Shown here: positions 15,187 through 21,461 of the stretch, piece by piece
Numbering within the stretch: position 1 is the stretch's first letter
How the letters are laid out: every line of letters begins with the position of its first letter
DNA from: Ancylobacter novellus DSM 506
Lineage (GTDB): Bacteria; Pseudomonadota; Alphaproteobacteria; Rhizobiales; Xanthobacteraceae
NCBI RefSeq assembly: GCF_000092925.1
Contig: NC_014217.1
Coordinates: 3,472,001-3,536,000 of the forward strand
Direction: 5' to 3'
Length of the DNA: 64,000 nt
Translations under genes and position numbers: made by a program
The notes under the pieces: model-generated
What the model was told of the DNA's origin: nothing
The model's database searches: none
Seen by the model: the letters and a program-made list of their open reading frames with translations, nothing else

Positions 15187-15900
15187 TCAGTTGCGCGGCC
15201 GCGCCGGTGCGGGATCGCGGCCGCCGGCGGCCTTGGCGGCGATCCAGATCACATGCCGCGCTCCGCCGCCCTTGCCGTTGGCGCGGACCCGCGCCTCCTC
15301 CACGGTGAACCCGGCCCGGCGAAGGCGGGCGGTGAAATCGCGGTCCGGCCCGGACGACCACACGGCGAGAACGCCGCCGGGACGCAGCGCCGCGCGGGCG
15401 GCGCGCAGGCCGCTCGCGTCATAGAGCCCGTCATTGGCGGCGCGCATCAGCCCGCCGGGGCCGTTGTCGACGTCGAGCAGGATCGCGTCATAGGCCGCCC
15501 CGCCGGTGCGGATCAGGTCGCCGACATCGCCCTCGAACAGGCTGACGCGCGGATCGGTCAGGCTGGTCCCGAAGATGCCCGCCATTGGCCCGCGCGCCCA
15601 GGCGACGACAGCCGGGACCAGCTCCGCGACGACGATCTCCGCCTCAGGCCCGGTCTCGGCCAGCGCCGCGCGCAGCGTGAAGCCCATGCCGAGCCCGCCG
15701 ATCAGCAGGCGCGGCCTGGCGACCGGCCCGAGCCGAGCGCAGGCCAGCGCGGCCAGCGCCTTCTCGGAGCCGCTGAGGCGGCTGTTCATCAGCTCGATGG
15801 CGCCGGACATGATGGAGAATTCTTCGCCGCGCCGCATCAGGCGCAGCTCGCCGAAGCCGTCGGGCACTTTCGCCGTATCGAGTAGGGACCAGGGAATCAT
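15187..15900 (-). CDS. Spermidine synthase-like methyltransferase-fold protein
   Basis: A 237-residue protein resembling the polyamine synthase (SpeE-like) group. The N-terminal strand region ELRLMRRGEEFSIMSGAIELMNSRLSGSE is typical of the truncated SpeE-like proteins of Rhizobiales. The Rossmann core has LLIGGLGMGFTLRAAL as the nucleotide-binding loop and a VVAELVPAVVAWAR acidic strand. DAILLDVDNGPGGLM sits where the catalytic Asp lies in spermidine synthases. The N-terminal beta-hairpin domain is short, so true aminopropyl transfer is uncertain. GTG at 15981 is possible, but ATG 15900 (MIPWSLLDTAK) matches the usual N-terminus. It follows gluQ on the same strand. Confidence 0.8.
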   Translation of the reverse strand: MIPWSLLDTAKVPDGFGELRLMRRGEEFSIMSGAIELMNSRLSGSEKALAALACARLGPVARPRLLIGGLGMGFTLRAALAETGPEAEIVVAELVPAVVAWARGPMAGIFGTSLTDPRVSLFEGDVGDLIRTGGAAYDAILLDVDNGPGGLMRAANDGLYDASGLRAARAALRPGGVLAVWSSGPDRDFTARLRRAGFTVEEARVRANGKGGGARHVIWIAAKAAGGRDPAPARPRN

Positions 15901-15983
15901 CGGCCACTCGTATCGCCGTTCGCCGGGCCGGAACAAGAGGCCTCGCGCGCAGGCGCCTGCCCGAGACCGCACGACCGGCACGG

Positions 15984-16847
15984 CTAGAGCCCGGCCAACC
16001 GGCGAACCTCCTCCGGCGTCGCGCCGTTGGCGCGTAGGTCCTGCAGGCTCTGCGAGCCGAGCGACTTGGAGAGCTTGCGCCCGTCGGCGTCGGTGAGCAG
16101 CGCGTGATGGGTGTAGAGCGGCGCCGGCAGGCCGAGCAGCGCCTGGATCACCCGGTGTACCGAGGTCGCAGCCTTCAGATCAGCGCCGCGCACCACATGG
16201 GTGACGCCCTGCAGCGCGTCGTCGACCACGACGGCGAGGTGGTAGCTGGTCGGCACCTCCTTGCGCGCGATCACCACGTCGCCCCAGGCGGGCGGATCGG
16301 CGGCGACGGTCTCCCCAATGGGCTCCGGCCAGCCGATCTCCCGCCAGCTCAGCGGACCGGCGAGCGCCGCCGCCTTCGCCATGTCGAGCCGCAGCGCATA
16401 GGGCTCGCCCGCCTGCATCCGGCGGGCACGCTCCTCCTCGCTCATCGCCGTGCGCGGGAAGGGGAAGAGCGGCGCGCCGTCCGGGTCGCGCGGCCAGCCG
16501 GCCTCCTCCTCGACGGCGCGGCGGATATCGGCGCGGCTTTCGAAGCTGGCATAGACCACGTCCAGCGCGGCGAGCTTTTCCAGCGCGGCGCGATAATCCG
16601 CCATGTGCTCGGACTGCCGGCGCACCGGCTCTTCCCACGCGATTCCGAGCCAGCTCAGGTCGGAATAGATAGCCGCCTCATATTCCGGGCGGCAGCGCGT
16701 GGCGTCGATGTCCTCGATGCGCAGCAGCAGGCGGCCGCCGGCGCGGCGCGCCATCTCGAGATTGATCAGCGCCGAGCGCGCATGGCCGAGATGCAGCAGG
16801 CCGTTCGGGCTGGGGGCGAAGCGGAAGACGGGGCGGGAATCGGACAT
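15984..16847 (-). CDS. gluQ: Glutamyl-Q tRNA(Asp) synthetase
   Basis: Truncated glutamyl-tRNA synthetase paralogue that attaches glutamate to queuosine in tRNA(Asp). The class I signatures are present: VFRFAPSPNGLLHLGHARSAL (HIGH-like, LGHA) at the start and a KLSKS motif (DGRKLSKSLGSQS) near residue 250. The anticodon-binding domain of GluRS is absent and the length is about 287 residues, as expected. ATG 16847 gives MSDSRPVFRFAPSP, the normal short N-terminus. ATG 16883 would add 12 residues and begins at the edge of a family A repeat, so it is less likely. No clear ribosome-binding site is seen for either. Confidence 0.9.
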   Translation of the reverse strand: MSDSRPVFRFAPSPNGLLHLGHARSALINLEMARRAGGRLLLRIEDIDATRCRPEYEAAIYSDLSWLGIAWEEPVRRQSEHMADYRAALEKLAALDVVYASFESRADIRRAVEEEAGWPRDPDGAPLFPFPRTAMSEEERARRMQAGEPYALRLDMAKAAALAGPLSWREIGWPEPIGETVAADPPAWGDVVIARKEVPTSYHLAVVVDDALQGVTHVVRGADLKAATSVHRVIQALLGLPAPLYTHHALLTDADGRKLSKSLGSQSLQDLRANGATPEEVRRLAGL

Positions 16848-16886
16848 GGAAGGAGAAGACACGGGTGGGTCGACGACGTCCATCCG

Positions 16887-16995
16887 TCATGCTGAGGTGC
16901 CGGCCGGAACGGCCGGCCTCGAAGCACGCAGGCGAGAGCGACACGGACCGTCTGCGTCCTTCGAGGCTCGCTGCCGCTCGCACCTCAGGATGACG
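16887..16995. repeat. Palindromic intergenic repeat, family A (inverted pair)
   Basis: TCATGCTGAGGTGCCGGCC...GGCCTCGAAGCACGCA is followed by GTCCTTCGAGGCTCGC...GCACCTCAGGATGAC. The outer arms match the copies at 6.3, 27.4, 30.3 and 46.7 kb, and the inner loops differ. Confidence 0.85.
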
Positions 16996-17057
16996 GGGTT
17001 TGCTCTGCTGTAGGAACGGCATCCGTCTTCAGAGCCCGACCCGTAACTCCACTTCCC

Positions 17058-17147
17058 TCATCCCCGGGCTTGACCCGGGGACCCAGCCTTTCCACCCCAC
17101 CGGGTGCACCCGGTCACTAGGTGGCCGGGTCAAGCCCGGCCATGAGG
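17058..17147. repeat. Palindromic intergenic repeat, family B (inverted pair)
   Basis: CTCATCCCCGGGCTTGACCCGGGGA and its inverse GGCCGGGTCAAGCCCGGCCATGAG are separated by a GTGCACC-centred spacer that is also partly palindromic. Same family as at 10.5, 13.7 and 50.1 kb. Confidence 0.85.
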
Positions 17148-17193
17148 GCGAGAGGATGGCACTCGCGAGGTCAGGCAGCCGTAACCCCGCCCC

Positions 17194-17976
17194 TCAGAAC
17201 TGCCGCGCCACCATCAACTTCTTGATCTCGGCGATCGCCTTGGCCGGGTTCAGGCCCTTCGGGCAGGCCTTGGCGCAGTTCATGATGGTGTGGCAGCGAT
17301 AGAGCCGGAACGGGTCTTCGAGATCATCCAGGCGGTCGCCGGTGGCTTCGTCGCGGCTGTCGATCAGCCAGCGATAGGCCTGCAAAAGCGCCGCCGGGCC
17401 GAGATAGCGGTCGCCGTTCCACCAGTAGCTCGGGCAGGAAGTCGAGCAGCAGGCGCACAGGATGCACTCATACAGCCCGTCGAGCTTCTCGCGGTCGCCG
17501 CGCGCCTGCCGCCACTCCTTCTCGGGCGCCGGCGTCTCGGTGTGCAGCCAGGGCTCGATGGAGGCGTGCTGGGCGTAGAACTGCGTCATGTCCGGCACCA
17601 GATCCTTCACCACCGGCATGTGCGGCAGCGGGTAGATCTTCACCGCCGAGGCGTCCACGTCGTCCATGCTCTTGAGGCAGGCGAGCGTGTTGGTGCCGTC
17701 GATGTTCATGGCGCAGGAGCCGCAGATGCCCTCGCGGCAGGAGCGGCGGAAGGTCAGGGTCGGGTCGACCTTGTTCTTGATCCAGATGAGCCCGTCCAGC
17801 ACCATCGGGCCACAGTCGTCGCGGTCGACATAATAGGTGTCGACGCTCGGGTTCTTCCCGTCGTCCGGGTTCCAGCGGTAGATCTTGTACTCGGTCAGCC
17901 GGTTGGCGCCGGTGGGCTTGGGCCACACCTTGCCTTCGGTGATCTGCGAGTTCTTCGGCAGGGTCAGCTGGACCAT
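17194..17976 (-). CDS. sdhB: Succinate dehydrogenase iron-sulfur subunit
   Basis: The 260-residue iron-sulfur subunit that carries electrons from SdhA to ubiquinone. Cluster ligands are all visible: the [2Fe-2S] set in [22 protein letters not shown], the [4Fe-4S] set in [16 protein letters not shown], and the [3Fe-4S] set in [21 protein letters not shown]. Length is normal. Its ATG at 17976 has no well-placed ribosome-binding site: upstream reads GATAGGTTAATTCTAAAATG. That DNA belongs to the AT-rich ORF inserted between sdhA and sdhB. Translation of SdhB therefore probably depends on coupling to the preceding ORF, whose TAA ends 7 bases before the ATG. Confidence 0.96.
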
Positions 17977-17983
17977 TTTAGAA

Positions 17984-18457
17984 TTAACCTATCGCTCTGA
18001 CTTGGTCGTCGACTTCTCTTATTTTACTATTAAGTTCATTTATCTCAGAAATCAGATTTCTTGCTATTTCTGCAATCTCTTTCTTATCCCCGGTGAGCAT
18101 GAGGGTGAAAAATATGGCATTAAATCCACCCCTAATGCCGCCCTTCATCGAGGCCACCTCTCTCAGCTTCACAACCATTTCGATACTCAGGCCCAAATTG
18201 GTTGCGACTGATTTCGAAGTTAAGAAATTGATCTCTTTTTGAATCTCGTCTTCATTCTTTATGTAGGGAGCAGCTTCAATTATTATCTTCCTAGGATCTT
18301 CTTCAGCCGCCAGTCTCTCTAGAAGAGCCAGTAATTCATCAGGATAGAAATAAATAATTCTAAGTGCTCTTGCTACATGCCTGCGCTCTGCCGGATCTAA
18401 AAAGTTAATTGCTTTAATAATCTGCCCAAATATAGAGCCTACTGTTTCAGGCCCCAA
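17984..18457 (-). CDS. AT-rich ORF of unknown function inserted in the sdh operon
   Basis: A 157-codon reading frame lying between sdhA and sdhB. Its base composition is very unlike its surroundings (roughly 35-45% GC by eye, with many A/T-ending codons such as AAA, ATT, TTA and GAA, in DNA otherwise near two-thirds GC). This suggests recent acquisition. It appears to start with TTG at 18457, preceded by GAGGAGG at ideal spacing. That site overlaps the sdhA stop codon and probably once served sdhB. The predicted protein is soluble and mostly helical: an N-terminal part with [17 protein letters not shown], a central charged part, and a C-terminal stretch ([16 protein letters not shown]) that could form a short coiled coil. 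I do not recognise a family, signal peptide or catalytic motif. Confidence 0.75.
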
Positions 18458-18467
18458 TTTCGCCTCC

Positions 18468-20333
18468 TCAATACACCCGCTTGCGCGGCTCGATGTACTG
18501 GATGTCGTTCGACAGCGTGTAGGTGTGCACCGGCCGGTCGTCGAGGCGCACGCTGCGCTTGTCGAAGTCGACGAAGGCCAGCGTGTGCTTCATCCAGTTG
18601 GCGTCGTCGCGCTCGGGATAGTCCTCGCGCGCATGGGCGCCGCGGCTCTCGGTGCGGGCCGCCGCGCCTTCCATGGTGACGGTGGCAAGGCCGATCAGGT
18701 TGTCGTATTCGAGCGTCTCGATGAGGTCGGAGTTCCACACCAGCGAGCGGTCGGTGACGTCGATGTCGTCGGTGCCGGCGAACACCTCGGCGATCAGCTT
18801 GCGGCCCTCCTCCAGCACCTCGCCGGTGCGGTAGACCGCGCAATTGTTCTGCATCACCTTCTGCATCTGCAGGCGCAGCTCCGCGGTCGGCGTGCCGCCA
18901 TCCGCATTGCGGAAGCGGTCGAGCCGGGAGATGGCGGCATCGGCCGAATCGGCCGGCAGCTCGCGCTGCTTCTCGCCGGAGGTGAGCAGCTCGGCGCAGC
19001 GCAGCGCCGCCGCGCGGCCGAACACCACGAGGTCGGTCAGCGAGTTCGAACCGAGCCGGTTGGCGCCGTGCACGGAGACGCAGGCGCATTCGCCCACCGC
19101 CATCAGGCCGGGCACCACATGGTCGGCATTGCCGCCCTTCTTGGTCAGCACCTCGCCGTGGAAGTTCGTGGGGATGCCGCCCATGTTGTAGTGCACGGTC
19201 GGCAGCACCGGGATCGGCTCCTTGGTCAGGTCGACGCCGGCGAAGATGCGCGCGCTCTCGGAGATGCCGGGCAGGCGCTCATGCAGCACCGCCGGATCGA
19301 GATGATCGAGGTGCAGGTAGATGTGGTCCTTGTTCTTGCCCACGCCCCGGCCCTCGCGGATCTCCATGGTCATGGAGCGCGAGACAACGTCGCGGGAAGC
19401 AAGGTCCTTGGCCGAGGGGGCATAGCGCTCCATGAAGCGCTCGCCCTCGGAATTGGTGAGGTAGCCGCCCTCGCCGCGCGCGCCCTCGGTGATCAGGCAG
19501 CCCGCGCCGTATATCCCCGTGGGGTGGAACTGCACGAACTCCATGTCCTGCAGCGGCAGGCCGGCGCGCAGCACCATGGCGTTGCCGTCGCCGGTGCAGG
19601 TGTGGGCGCTCGTTGCGGAGAAATAGGCCCGGCCATAGCCGCCGGTGGCGAGGATCACCATCTGCGCGCGGAAGCGGTGCAGCGTGCCGTCGTCCATCTT
19701 CAGCGCGACGATGCCGCGGCAGCGCCCGTCCTCGTCCATGATCAGGTCGAGGGCGAAATACTCGATGAAGAATTCGGCCGAGTGCTTCAGCGCCGCGCCG
19801 TAGAGCGTGTGCAGGATGGCGTGGCCGGTGCGGTCGGCCGCGGCGCAGGTGCGCTGCGCGGTGCCCTTGCCGTAGTCGGTGGTCATGCCGCCGAAGGGGC
19901 GCTGATAGATCTTGCCTTCCTCGGTGCGCGAGAACGGCACGCCCCAGTGCTCGAGCTCGTAGACCGCGGCGGGGGCCTGGCGCACGAGATATTCGATCGC
20001 GTCCTGGTCGCCGAGCCAGTCGGAGCCCTTCACCGTGTCGTACATGTGGAAGCGCCAGTCGTCCCGGCTCATATTGCCGAGCGAGGCGGCGATGCCACCC
20101 TGCGCCGCCACCGTGTGCGAACGGGTGGGGAAGACCTTGGTCACGCAGGCGGTGCGCAATCCCGCCTCGGAGCAGCCGACCACGGCACGAAGCCCCGCGC
20201 CGCCGGCGCCCACCACCACGACGTCGTAGGAATGGTCGGTGATCGGATAGGCCGCGCCGTTGAAGCCGGGGGCCGCACCGTTGGCGTGACCCGCCCCGTT
20301 GGAAGCGCCATTGGCGGAGATGGTCTCGGCCAT
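18468..20333 (-). CDS. sdhA: Succinate dehydrogenase flavoprotein subunit
   Basis: Catalytic FAD subunit of complex II (succinate to fumarate) on the cytoplasmic face of the inner membrane. After a low-complexity N-terminal leader rich in Asn, Gly and Ala (about residues 1-30) come the FAD dinucleotide motif [13 protein letters not shown], the flavinylation site SHTVAAQGG (His), the capping domain, and [19 protein letters not shown] near residue 405. About 621 residues. ATG 20333 is chosen because GGAGGC lies seven bases upstream; a longer frame to 20387 overlaps sdhD. The stop TGA overlaps the GAGGAGG that now drives the inserted ORF. Part of sdhCDAB. Confidence 0.96.
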
Positions 20334-20337
20334 CGGT

Positions 20338-20748
20338 TCAGCCTCCGAAACTGATCTTGAGGATGGCGAACGCCCCGGCGAAGCCAACCGCTGTCGTGAA
20401 GAAGGTATTGGCGATCAGCGCGAGCACCTTCACGCCCTCGGCATGGACGTAGTCCTCGATGACCACCTGCATGCCGATGCGCATGTGCATGCAGACGGAG
20501 AGCAGCAGCAGCAGCAGCACGATGGCGACCAGCGGGTTGCCGAGCGTCGCCACCACCCCCGCATGGCCCTCGCCGGCGACGGCGATGACGATCGGCAGGG
20601 CGATGATGACGAGGATCAGGTTGGATAGCGCGGTGACGCGCTGCAGCCAGAAATGGCCGGTGCCCGAGCGCGCCGAGCCGAGGCCGGCGACGCGCCGGCG
20701 CGGGGTGCGCATGGAAGCGGACGAGCCGGAGCCGGAAGCGGTACTCAT
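20338..20748 (-). CDS. sdhD: Succinate dehydrogenase membrane anchor subunit
   Basis: A 136-residue membrane anchor of complex II that helps bind haem b and ubiquinone. Three transmembrane helices are apparent (about residues 35-55, 65-85 and 110-132). The signature [21 protein letters not shown] contains the His and Asp/Tyr positions of SdhD. The N-terminus [28 protein letters not shown] is typical of alphaproteobacterial SdhD. It begins three bases after sdhC and ends five bases before the sdhA start, as in a single operon. Confidence 0.93.
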
Positions 20749-20751
20749 CGT

Positions 20752-21144
20752 TCAGCCCTTCACCAGCCAGATGATGATCCACAGAAGGACGGTCAAGCCG
20801 ATCGAGCCGCCTATGGTGGCCCTGGCCATCCATTCGCGCGCCTGCGGGCCGAAGCCGGCGCCGGTGTCCCAGATGAAGTGGCGTATGCCGCCGAGCGCGT
20901 GGTGGATCAGCGCCCATGAGTAGCCGACCAGCACGAGAAGGCCGATCCAGCTGCCATAGAGCCCGTTCACCGTGTCGAAGGCGGCGGGCGAACTCGCCGC
21001 GGCGACCAGCCAGATGACGAGCAGAAGCGTGCCGAAATAAAGCGCCACGCCGGTGATGCGGTGCACGATGGACATCATCATCGTGAGCATCGGGCGGTAG
21101 ATTTGCAGATGCGGGGAAAGGGGCCGCTCGGCCGCTCCTGCCAT
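20752..21144 (-). CDS. sdhC: Succinate dehydrogenase cytochrome b556 subunit
   Basis: A 130-residue cytochrome b subunit of complex II. Family motifs are clear: RPLSPHLQIYRP near the N-terminus, SIVHRITGVALYFG (quinone-site Ser and Arg), and SWALIHHALGGIRHFIWDTG, which carries the haem-ligand His. Three transmembrane helices cover about residues 25-50, 65-85 and 108-128. First gene of the sdhCDAB operon; its upstream region contains an inverted repeat (21197-21213). Confidence 0.94.
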   Translation of the reverse strand: MAGAAERPLSPHLQIYRPMLTMMMSIVHRITGVALYFGTLLLVIWLVAAASSPAAFDTVNGLYGSWIGLLVLVGYSWALIHHALGGIRHFIWDTGAGFGPQAREWMARATIGGSIGLTVLLWIIIWLVKG

Positions 21145-21461
21145 GTCCGTGTCCCGGGCTTTTCTCAGTGCTTATATCTGTGTGCGTAGCGGAAACGATT
21201 GCAGTTCGCAATCATTCCAAAGGCGCGCTCTATCGATTCCTCCCGCGGCGCCAACTCTTCCGGTTGCGCCGCAACAACCCCACCCTAGCGCCGGCGGCTG
21301 GCCCGCGCATCCCCCCTTCCGGCGGTATCCCGGCGCGCGCCTCAAACCCCAGCACGGCCGAGCGCTCACCAGCCATTAACCATCTCTGCCTTTTAATTGA
21401 CGGAAATCCGCGTTCTGTACGGGTTTCCGCGCAAACCCGACGAGTTGAGGTTGCGTAGCTT
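21145..21461. other. Divergent promoter region between sdhC and the exported esterase
   Basis: A 317-base stretch without a gene. Near the sdhC side are a GATTGC-N5-GCAATC inverted repeat and, on the reverse strand, a TATAAG hexamer (near 21171) that could be a -10 element. The right end (about 21380-21440) is locally AT-rich (CTTTTAATTGACGG) and probably holds the promoter of the gene at 21462. No terminator or RNA gene is apparent. Confidence 0.5.
21197..21213. promoter_or_regulatory. Inverted repeat GATTGC-N5-GCAATC upstream of sdhC
   Basis: A six-bp inverted repeat with a five-base centre lies 53 bases before the sdhC start. Its TTGC-N5-GCAA shape loosely resembles iron-regulator (Fur/Mur) sites of alphaproteobacteria, and sdh operons are iron-regulated in several bacteria. 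The assignment is a guess from shape and place. Confidence 0.35.

Follow-up and report, generated by a model that had tools for sequence, protein, structure and literature searches.

The window analysed here, a 64,000-nt stretch of contig NC_014217.1 of Ancylobacter novellus DSM 506 (S. novella below), carries on its minus strand the genes sdhC, sdhD, sdhA, an additional ORF and sdhB, in this order (Table 1). The sdhB gene has a single match in its own genome at E ≤ 1e-20. The start of sdhA was set at the ATG at 20333, and a longer frame, starting with a TTG at 20387, is also open. Between the sdhA stop, which ends at 18468, and the sdhB ATG, which begins at 17976, lies a gap of 491 nt, and the additional ORF (insert ORF) leaves only 10 nt ahead of its start codon and 7 nt behind its stop codon.

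Table 1. Features of the sdh operon in the window, in the direction of transcription.
Feature	Position	Strand	Remarks
sdhC	20752-21144	-	operon start; Pfam Sdh_cyt, 1.6e-30
sdhD	20338-20748	-	Pfam Sdh_cyt, 5.2e-17
sdhA (flavoprotein), upstream neighbour of the insert	18468..20333	-	FAD_binding_2 9.4e-129 and Succ_DH_flav_C 5.3e-45, for 18468-20330
10-nt leader GGAGGCGAAA	18458..18467	-	joined to the sdhA stop gives TGAGGAGG, the strong Shine-Dalgarno sequence of the insert
insert ORF	17984..18457	-	AT-rich; starts with TTG; 157-aa product of a very rare family, all-helical by prediction
spacer, insert stop to sdhB ATG	17977..17983	-	7 nt; weak Shine-Dalgarno sequence for sdhB (-3.1)
sdhB (iron-sulphur subunit), downstream neighbour of the insert	17194..17976	-	Fer2_3 8.7e-34

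The initial annotation had described an AT-rich ORF of 157 codons that exactly fills the space between sdhA and sdhB, and the coordinates and composition bear this out. The G+C content of the insert ORF is 0.407 and its GC3 is 0.392, compared with a GC3 of 0.924 in sdhA and 0.939 in sdhB. When the window was scanned in sliding stretches of 474 nt at a step of 6, 5 of 10,588 had a G+C content as low as that of the insert ORF, and all stretches below 0.52 join into a single region around this ORF. The maximum-likelihood low-GC segment, fitted on window positions 15501-21000, is 17975-18475 and matches the insert ORF, in keeping with the AT-richness from the insert start to the sdhB ATG that had been proposed. 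The TTG start, which is consistent with the N-termini of homologues, indeed stands behind a GAGGAGG overlapping the sdhA stop: the calculated duplex energy of TGAGGAGG with the anti-Shine-Dalgarno sequence is -12.2 kcal/mol (duplex energy only, spacing apart). A spurious ORF or an assembly artefact is a negligible prospect. A study of this organism places the four SDH subunits on the consecutive tags Snov_3317-3320 (PMC3797975), from which the insert ORF seems to have been untagged in the original annotation. Doubt about coding is refuted by near full-length homologues of the insert protein, with 42–48% identity and E values of 1e-26 to 1e-32, and an artefact is contradicted by the genome being in one contig and by the match between the fitted low-GC segment and the ORF.

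Apart from the insert ORF, the only frame of at least 50 codons in the 491-nt gap is a 69-aa antisense frame, and there is no two-gene toxin-antitoxin layout. One exact 9-nt direct repeat (18004 and 18536) and a 9-nt inverted pair (17978 and 18355) were found at the insert edges and were judged to be chance; with edge repeats of at most 9 exact bases, the gene does lie there without flanking repeats, as first described. No integrase or tRNA was seen at the S. novella insert site, no phage genes were recognised beside it, and an Rfam scan across the operon gave 0 matches.

The sdhA-sdhB junction was compared among 30 genomes of the genus (S. novella included) and 296 genomes of the family (congeners among them). 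The gap measures 20–84 nt in 25 of the 30 genus genomes and exceeds 400 nt in five, S. novella being one of these. The insert ORF has 0 copies in the 29 congeners, and matches at E ≤ 0.01 in the family sample are confined to S. novella itself and one distantly related genome (G231). The nearest relative (G284), with 97.3% identity in sdhA and 98.1% in sdhB, has a GC-rich sdhA-sdhB spacer of 70 nt. None of the 9-mers from this spacer and three similar ones is retained in the S. novella gap, which together with the 70-nt spacer of the relative indicates that the insert ORF was gained recently, in place of the spacer. The identity of sdhA and sdhB to this relative shows no dip toward the insert, and thus a long co-transferred flank was not seen, tracts below about 100 nt being under the resolution of the comparison. 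The site is nearly empty in the nearest relative, no congener carries the gene, and the composition of the gene is not host-like, all of which supports the original proposal of a foreign gene captured into a core operon. The reading frame, its foreign composition and the empty sites indicate that the insert ORF is genuine and was acquired horizontally as an accessory gene. By eye, the 70–84 nt spacers of four congeners (L004, L005, L019 and L020) share a GC-rich inverted repeat, which is absent from the S. novella insert.

The other four enlarged gaps of the genus hold three unrelated inserts: an oppositely oriented methyltransferase gene (G258), a gene whose small product is unmatched and, as read from its sequence, appears to have membrane segments (G241), and a second methyltransferase (G272, scanned as the duplicate L033) with a homologue in G084. 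A wider comparison used 80 named loci, which are the best SdhB matches of at least 593 stretches and not a random sample; sdhA was out of reach in three, leaving 77 measured loci. Gaps above 200 nt occur at sdhA-sdhB in 19 of 77 loci, at sdhC-sdhD in 0 of 74 (one value, L066, is a mis-hit) and at sdhD-sdhA in 0 of 74 (Fisher p 1e-6, relatedness ignored). After the genus was added and the duplicates L033 and L034 (of L021 and L029) were dropped, 23 of 105 distinct sdhA-sdhB junctions exceed 200 nt, falling into 13 sequence groups defined by similarity of any frame of 50 codons. The L070 insert has no start-to-stop ORF of 50 codons, and the L072 and L102 groups have no clear Pfam gene. Some groups look vertical, such as an insert of 436–455 nt found in Mesorhizobium, Aminobacter and a MAG. 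Since some groups look vertical and some lack a clear gene or Pfam match, independent cargo events are fewer than 23.

Recognised cargo at sdhA-sdhB includes FkbM methyltransferases in Stappia and Roseibium, PIN-domain proteins in Methylocystis and Prosthecomicrobium, a DUF433/DUF5615 pair in Methylobacterium and a reversed glycosyltransferase in a Nitratireductor MAG. In this MAG (L048:2796-4854), the glycosyltransferase and an unmatched gene lie antiparallel to the operon inside the junction. The toxin-antitoxin-like PIN or DUF433/DUF5615 genes occupy the junction in three genera (L036, L046 and L077). They share the address and the operon orientation of the S. novella insert but belong to other families, and the latter is a single gene without a PIN domain.

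As controls, 25 ribosomal and 13 nuo junctions were measured in 29 genus genomes (own included), and none showed a mixture of inserts comparable to that at sdhA-sdhB. In the congener sdh set (n=29, own excluded), a median of 353 nt includes sdhD. One ribosomal junction with a median of 189 nt exceeds 200 nt in 3 of 29 genomes (201, 229 and 331 nt), and another measures 252 nt in all 29. Two nuo junctions have outlying low values (-4 and -54), one of which had the usual spacing when inspected in three genomes; the nuo gene list missed several small genes, and some constant nuo 'gaps' therefore hold genes. A 310-nt insert lies between genes read as nuoF and nuoG in 5 of the 29 genomes (L135, L146, L148, L149 and L155) and is absent from S. 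novella; it represents one 102-aa gene family, pentapeptide-repeat-like by our own reading. The junction ahead of it measures about 340 nt in 2 of 27 genomes, one of them among these five.

Many unrelated accessory genes are thus found between sdhA and sdhB, more than at the control junctions. Hotspots of horizontal transfer between adjacent core genes are already known, as described in PMC5635113. Fast-changing unrelated genes between one pair of core genes are common to those hotspots and the sdhA-sdhB junction. The latter differs in that its cargo, lodged within a core respiratory operon, usually consists of a single gene or a pair, with no integrase or tRNA seen in S. novella. Selection for complex II modulation, defence or self-maintenance, as suggested in the initial annotation, may lie behind the insertion in S. 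novella. The diversity of cargo argues that tolerance of the site matters.

A homologue of the insert ORF was found at the same address in a genome from another family of the order (G698; L123:7059-7535). It lies exactly between sdhA and sdhB, with 10 bases separating its start from the sdhA stop and 39 bases separating its end from sdhB. Its G+C content is 0.36, against 0.54–0.56 in sdhA and sdhB, and its GC3 is 0.31, against 0.60–0.62. The gene was found in this one of the six genomes of that family. The junction was read in three of the five relatives: just 12 nt separate sdhA and sdhB in G855 (98% identity in sdhB), and G805 and G776 carry other inserts. The insert of G805, a congener of G698, has a weak match, short of the Pfam cut-off, to the protease inhibitor Inh (L127:891-1415). 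The two sdh-borne proteins share 36% amino acid identity and are not sisters in a midpoint-rooted tree, in which long branches make this placement uncertain. Two distant members of the family lie elsewhere, one following a gene read as rpe (G231) and one preceding repABC genes (G720), with G+C contents of 0.45–0.46 beside genes of 0.66 and 0.58, respectively. The search for the same protein in other operons, as suggested in the initial annotation, therefore returned the sdhA-sdhB junction once more, and otherwise led to distant members near other genes. On a 3.9-Mb contig (L124:7451-12266), repABC-type replication and partition genes were observed with a distant family homologue upstream.

The shared address in two distant genera, together with the deep branches of the tree, would also suit an old operon member lost in most lineages, with no capture involved. 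We regard this as very improbable, considering the foreign composition in both hosts (GC3 0.39 beside 0.92–0.94 and 0.31 beside 0.60–0.62), the short gaps in relatives with 95–98% identity in sdhA and sdhB, and the absence of the gene from nearly all sampled genomes.

The insert protein belongs to a very rare family. A first search of 5.8 billion proteins retrieved three relatives, and a second, alignment-based search, in which the best 7999 candidates were scored, gave at least nine proteins, query included; in all, at least six close and about 20 remote relatives were found among the 5.8 billion. At E ≤ 0.001, the gene was matched in 1 of 385 genomes of the class sample (its own) and in 1 of 20 of the family of G720 (G720 itself). 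Three order samples, which overlap and whose counts are not additive, gave 3 of 397 (own, G698 and G720), 1 of 397 (G698) and 2 of 375 (own and G698). The close clade (A8) consists of the insert protein, L123, P0002-P0006 and P0008, which show near full-length homology with the motifs YF.PD and TS.SV.TNL in all eight. The eight sequences have 29 invariant positions, many polar (TSxSVxTNL, R29, R32, K104, R108 and N142, numbered from codon 2), and the polar ones among them fall within YFxPD, TSxSVxTNL and the last two helices, which suggests a putative binding or active site.

Profile-profile comparison, proposed along with structure prediction in the initial annotation, joined the family to the P0009 clade (MULTISPECIES hypothetical protein, Alphaproteobacteria), which has 20 members at E ≤ 0.01. 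The match covers most of the length with an hhalign probability of 75% and an E value of 2.4e-5, a moderate rather than strong link, and the A5 profile retrieves the insert protein among the loci at E 8.9e-5. The P0009 clade is similar in this profile match and in its helical model, and differs in an 11-residue insertion, an identity to the insert protein of only 19–25%, and the location away from sdh of both distant members with a readable context, of which one belongs to this clade and the other is more remote. The predicted structure of the insert protein, from an alignment of 28 sequences, is all-helical (mean pLDDT 85.5, pTM 0.72), likewise that of P0009 (mean pLDDT 73, pTM 0.70). Fold comparison of the former returned generic helical bundles only and no convincing match. 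In each of the 4 genomes that were read, the family member is AT-rich relative to a gene next to it, and the AT-richness of the distant members fits a mobile family.

No Pfam family above the curated cut-off, SDH subunits and assembly factors included, and no NCBIfam family matched the insert protein. Searched alone, it had no convincing match in PHROG. PADLOC gave 0 families at E ≤ 10 and thus no known defence family; the 28 family members gave four weak PADLOC matches, each in one member. The best weak matches among these 28, in Pfam (RP854, 6e-4, four members; Arg_decarbox_C, 0.0012, six members), NCBIfam (0.003) and PADLOC (0.0014), were treated as chance. PDB sequences gave 0 matches. The insert protein had no match in phage and plasmid records, nor P0009 in plasmids; no match was confirmed for A1 or P0009 in viral contigs, or for A1 in named genome contigs. 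In the titles and abstract openings of a library thin in subscription journals, no work was found on inserts between sdhA and sdhB, on a joint within sdhCDAB acting as a hotspot or on the family of the insert.

It had also been proposed that the insert took over the ribosome-binding site of sdhB. The genus genomes contradict this, as GGAGG after the sdhA stop is absent from the other 29, and the insert has a Shine-Dalgarno sequence that is new. In S. novella, the 70-nt spacer type of the relatives is gone together with its own Shine-Dalgarno sequence, and the one that sdhB retains ranks, by duplex energy, second weakest among the 30. The AGAGG that serves the insert in G698 does correspond to the Shine-Dalgarno sequence of sdhB in its empty relative G855. 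A scan of 17000-21400 gave 2 promoter-like sequences (1.0 expected) and 5 terminator-like sequences (2.7 expected), which is near chance; one promoter-like sequence (9/12 match) and one terminator-like sequence (9-pair stem, 3 GC) lie inside the insert on the operon strand. PMC3797975 reports the presence of complex II in S. novella under every condition tested, and on this account the operon works despite the insert.

We favour the view that a horizontally gained gene of a helical family sits between sdhA and sdhB and rides on sdh expression as a passenger, with a probability of about 55%; both the coupling and the functional class are inferred. A gene of this very rare alphaproteobacterial family would have entered the junction and displaced the spacer of about 70 nt. 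It would be carried on the sdh transcript from the sdh promoter, the promoter-like match inside the insert being at chance level, and translated from its own Shine-Dalgarno sequence, whose calculated strength suggests strong expression. Ribosomes could then pass to sdhB, seven bases downstream, by termination-reinitiation, so that loss of insert translation would be expected to cost SdhB. The junction, as the loose joint of sdhCDAB, may tolerate extra cistrons and for this reason act as a landing site; the C-D and D-A junctions mostly overlap or lie close. The absence from congeners, the lost spacer 9-mers, the unrelated inserts, the gaps enlarged at this junction but not at C-D or D-A, the AT-richness of the family, its distant homologue beside repABC and the working complex II all agree with a passenger. 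The product most likely has a passenger function, as self-maintaining or protective cargo, and is not a catalytic part of complex II. The insert protein, however, matches no known cargo or defence family, and random placement of so rare a family should not hit one junction twice.

Promoterless passenger genes of phages and operons are known as 'morons'. The insert resembles them as an AT-rich single gene between conserved genes that is extra to the job of the operon, but it lies in a bacterial chromosome, presumably on a host transcript, with no phage genes recognised nearby.

The recurrence in G698 argues against mere tolerance of the site. Although the close clade has eight members, both of those with readable context (S. 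novella and G698) lie at sdhA-sdhB, in two families of the order and at 36% identity without being sisters. This leaves room for a less probable reading, a family tied to complex II, in which a small helical protein would bind an assembly intermediate or tune the enzyme and the address would be kept for stoichiometric co-translational supply; the invariant polar positions, as in a binding or active site, would suit such a role. These are only two cases, however, and near relatives of both hosts manage without the gene. Unrelated genes fill the junction elsewhere, the two distant members lie beside an rpe-like gene and repABC, and no Pfam match links the protein to an SDH subunit or assembly factor. 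A role linked to complex II is therefore ranked second, behind a passenger on a tolerant joint. It is rather doubtful that the rare mobile family homes to, or is kept at, sdhA-sdhB as a spreading SDH modulator that acts during assembly and holds sdhB expression hostage.

Cargo of a more specific kind, a protein guarding against phage or plasmids or one half of an addiction module, might be locked in by the essential operon. The AT-rich, patchy family, the recurrence at this junction of PIN, DUF433 with DUF5615 and a weak DUF6290/RHH match below the cut-off, and the weak sdhB Shine-Dalgarno sequence would be in line with this, but the gene is alone without a partner and the PADLOC searches were as described above, and we consider it unlikely. 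The significance lies in a core respiratory operon, found once in the genome, of which one joint repeatedly takes foreign genes in relatives, a natural experiment on where core operons tolerate cargo. An uncharacterised family found twice at one address in distant hosts also makes a cheap, direct test of complex II modulation feasible, in a soil bacterium already studied by shotgun proteomics. Among the loci read, one further ORF (L117:3579-4706) has the beginning of an ABC ATPase linked to a peptidase S58 domain, possibly an assembly joint in a short contig.
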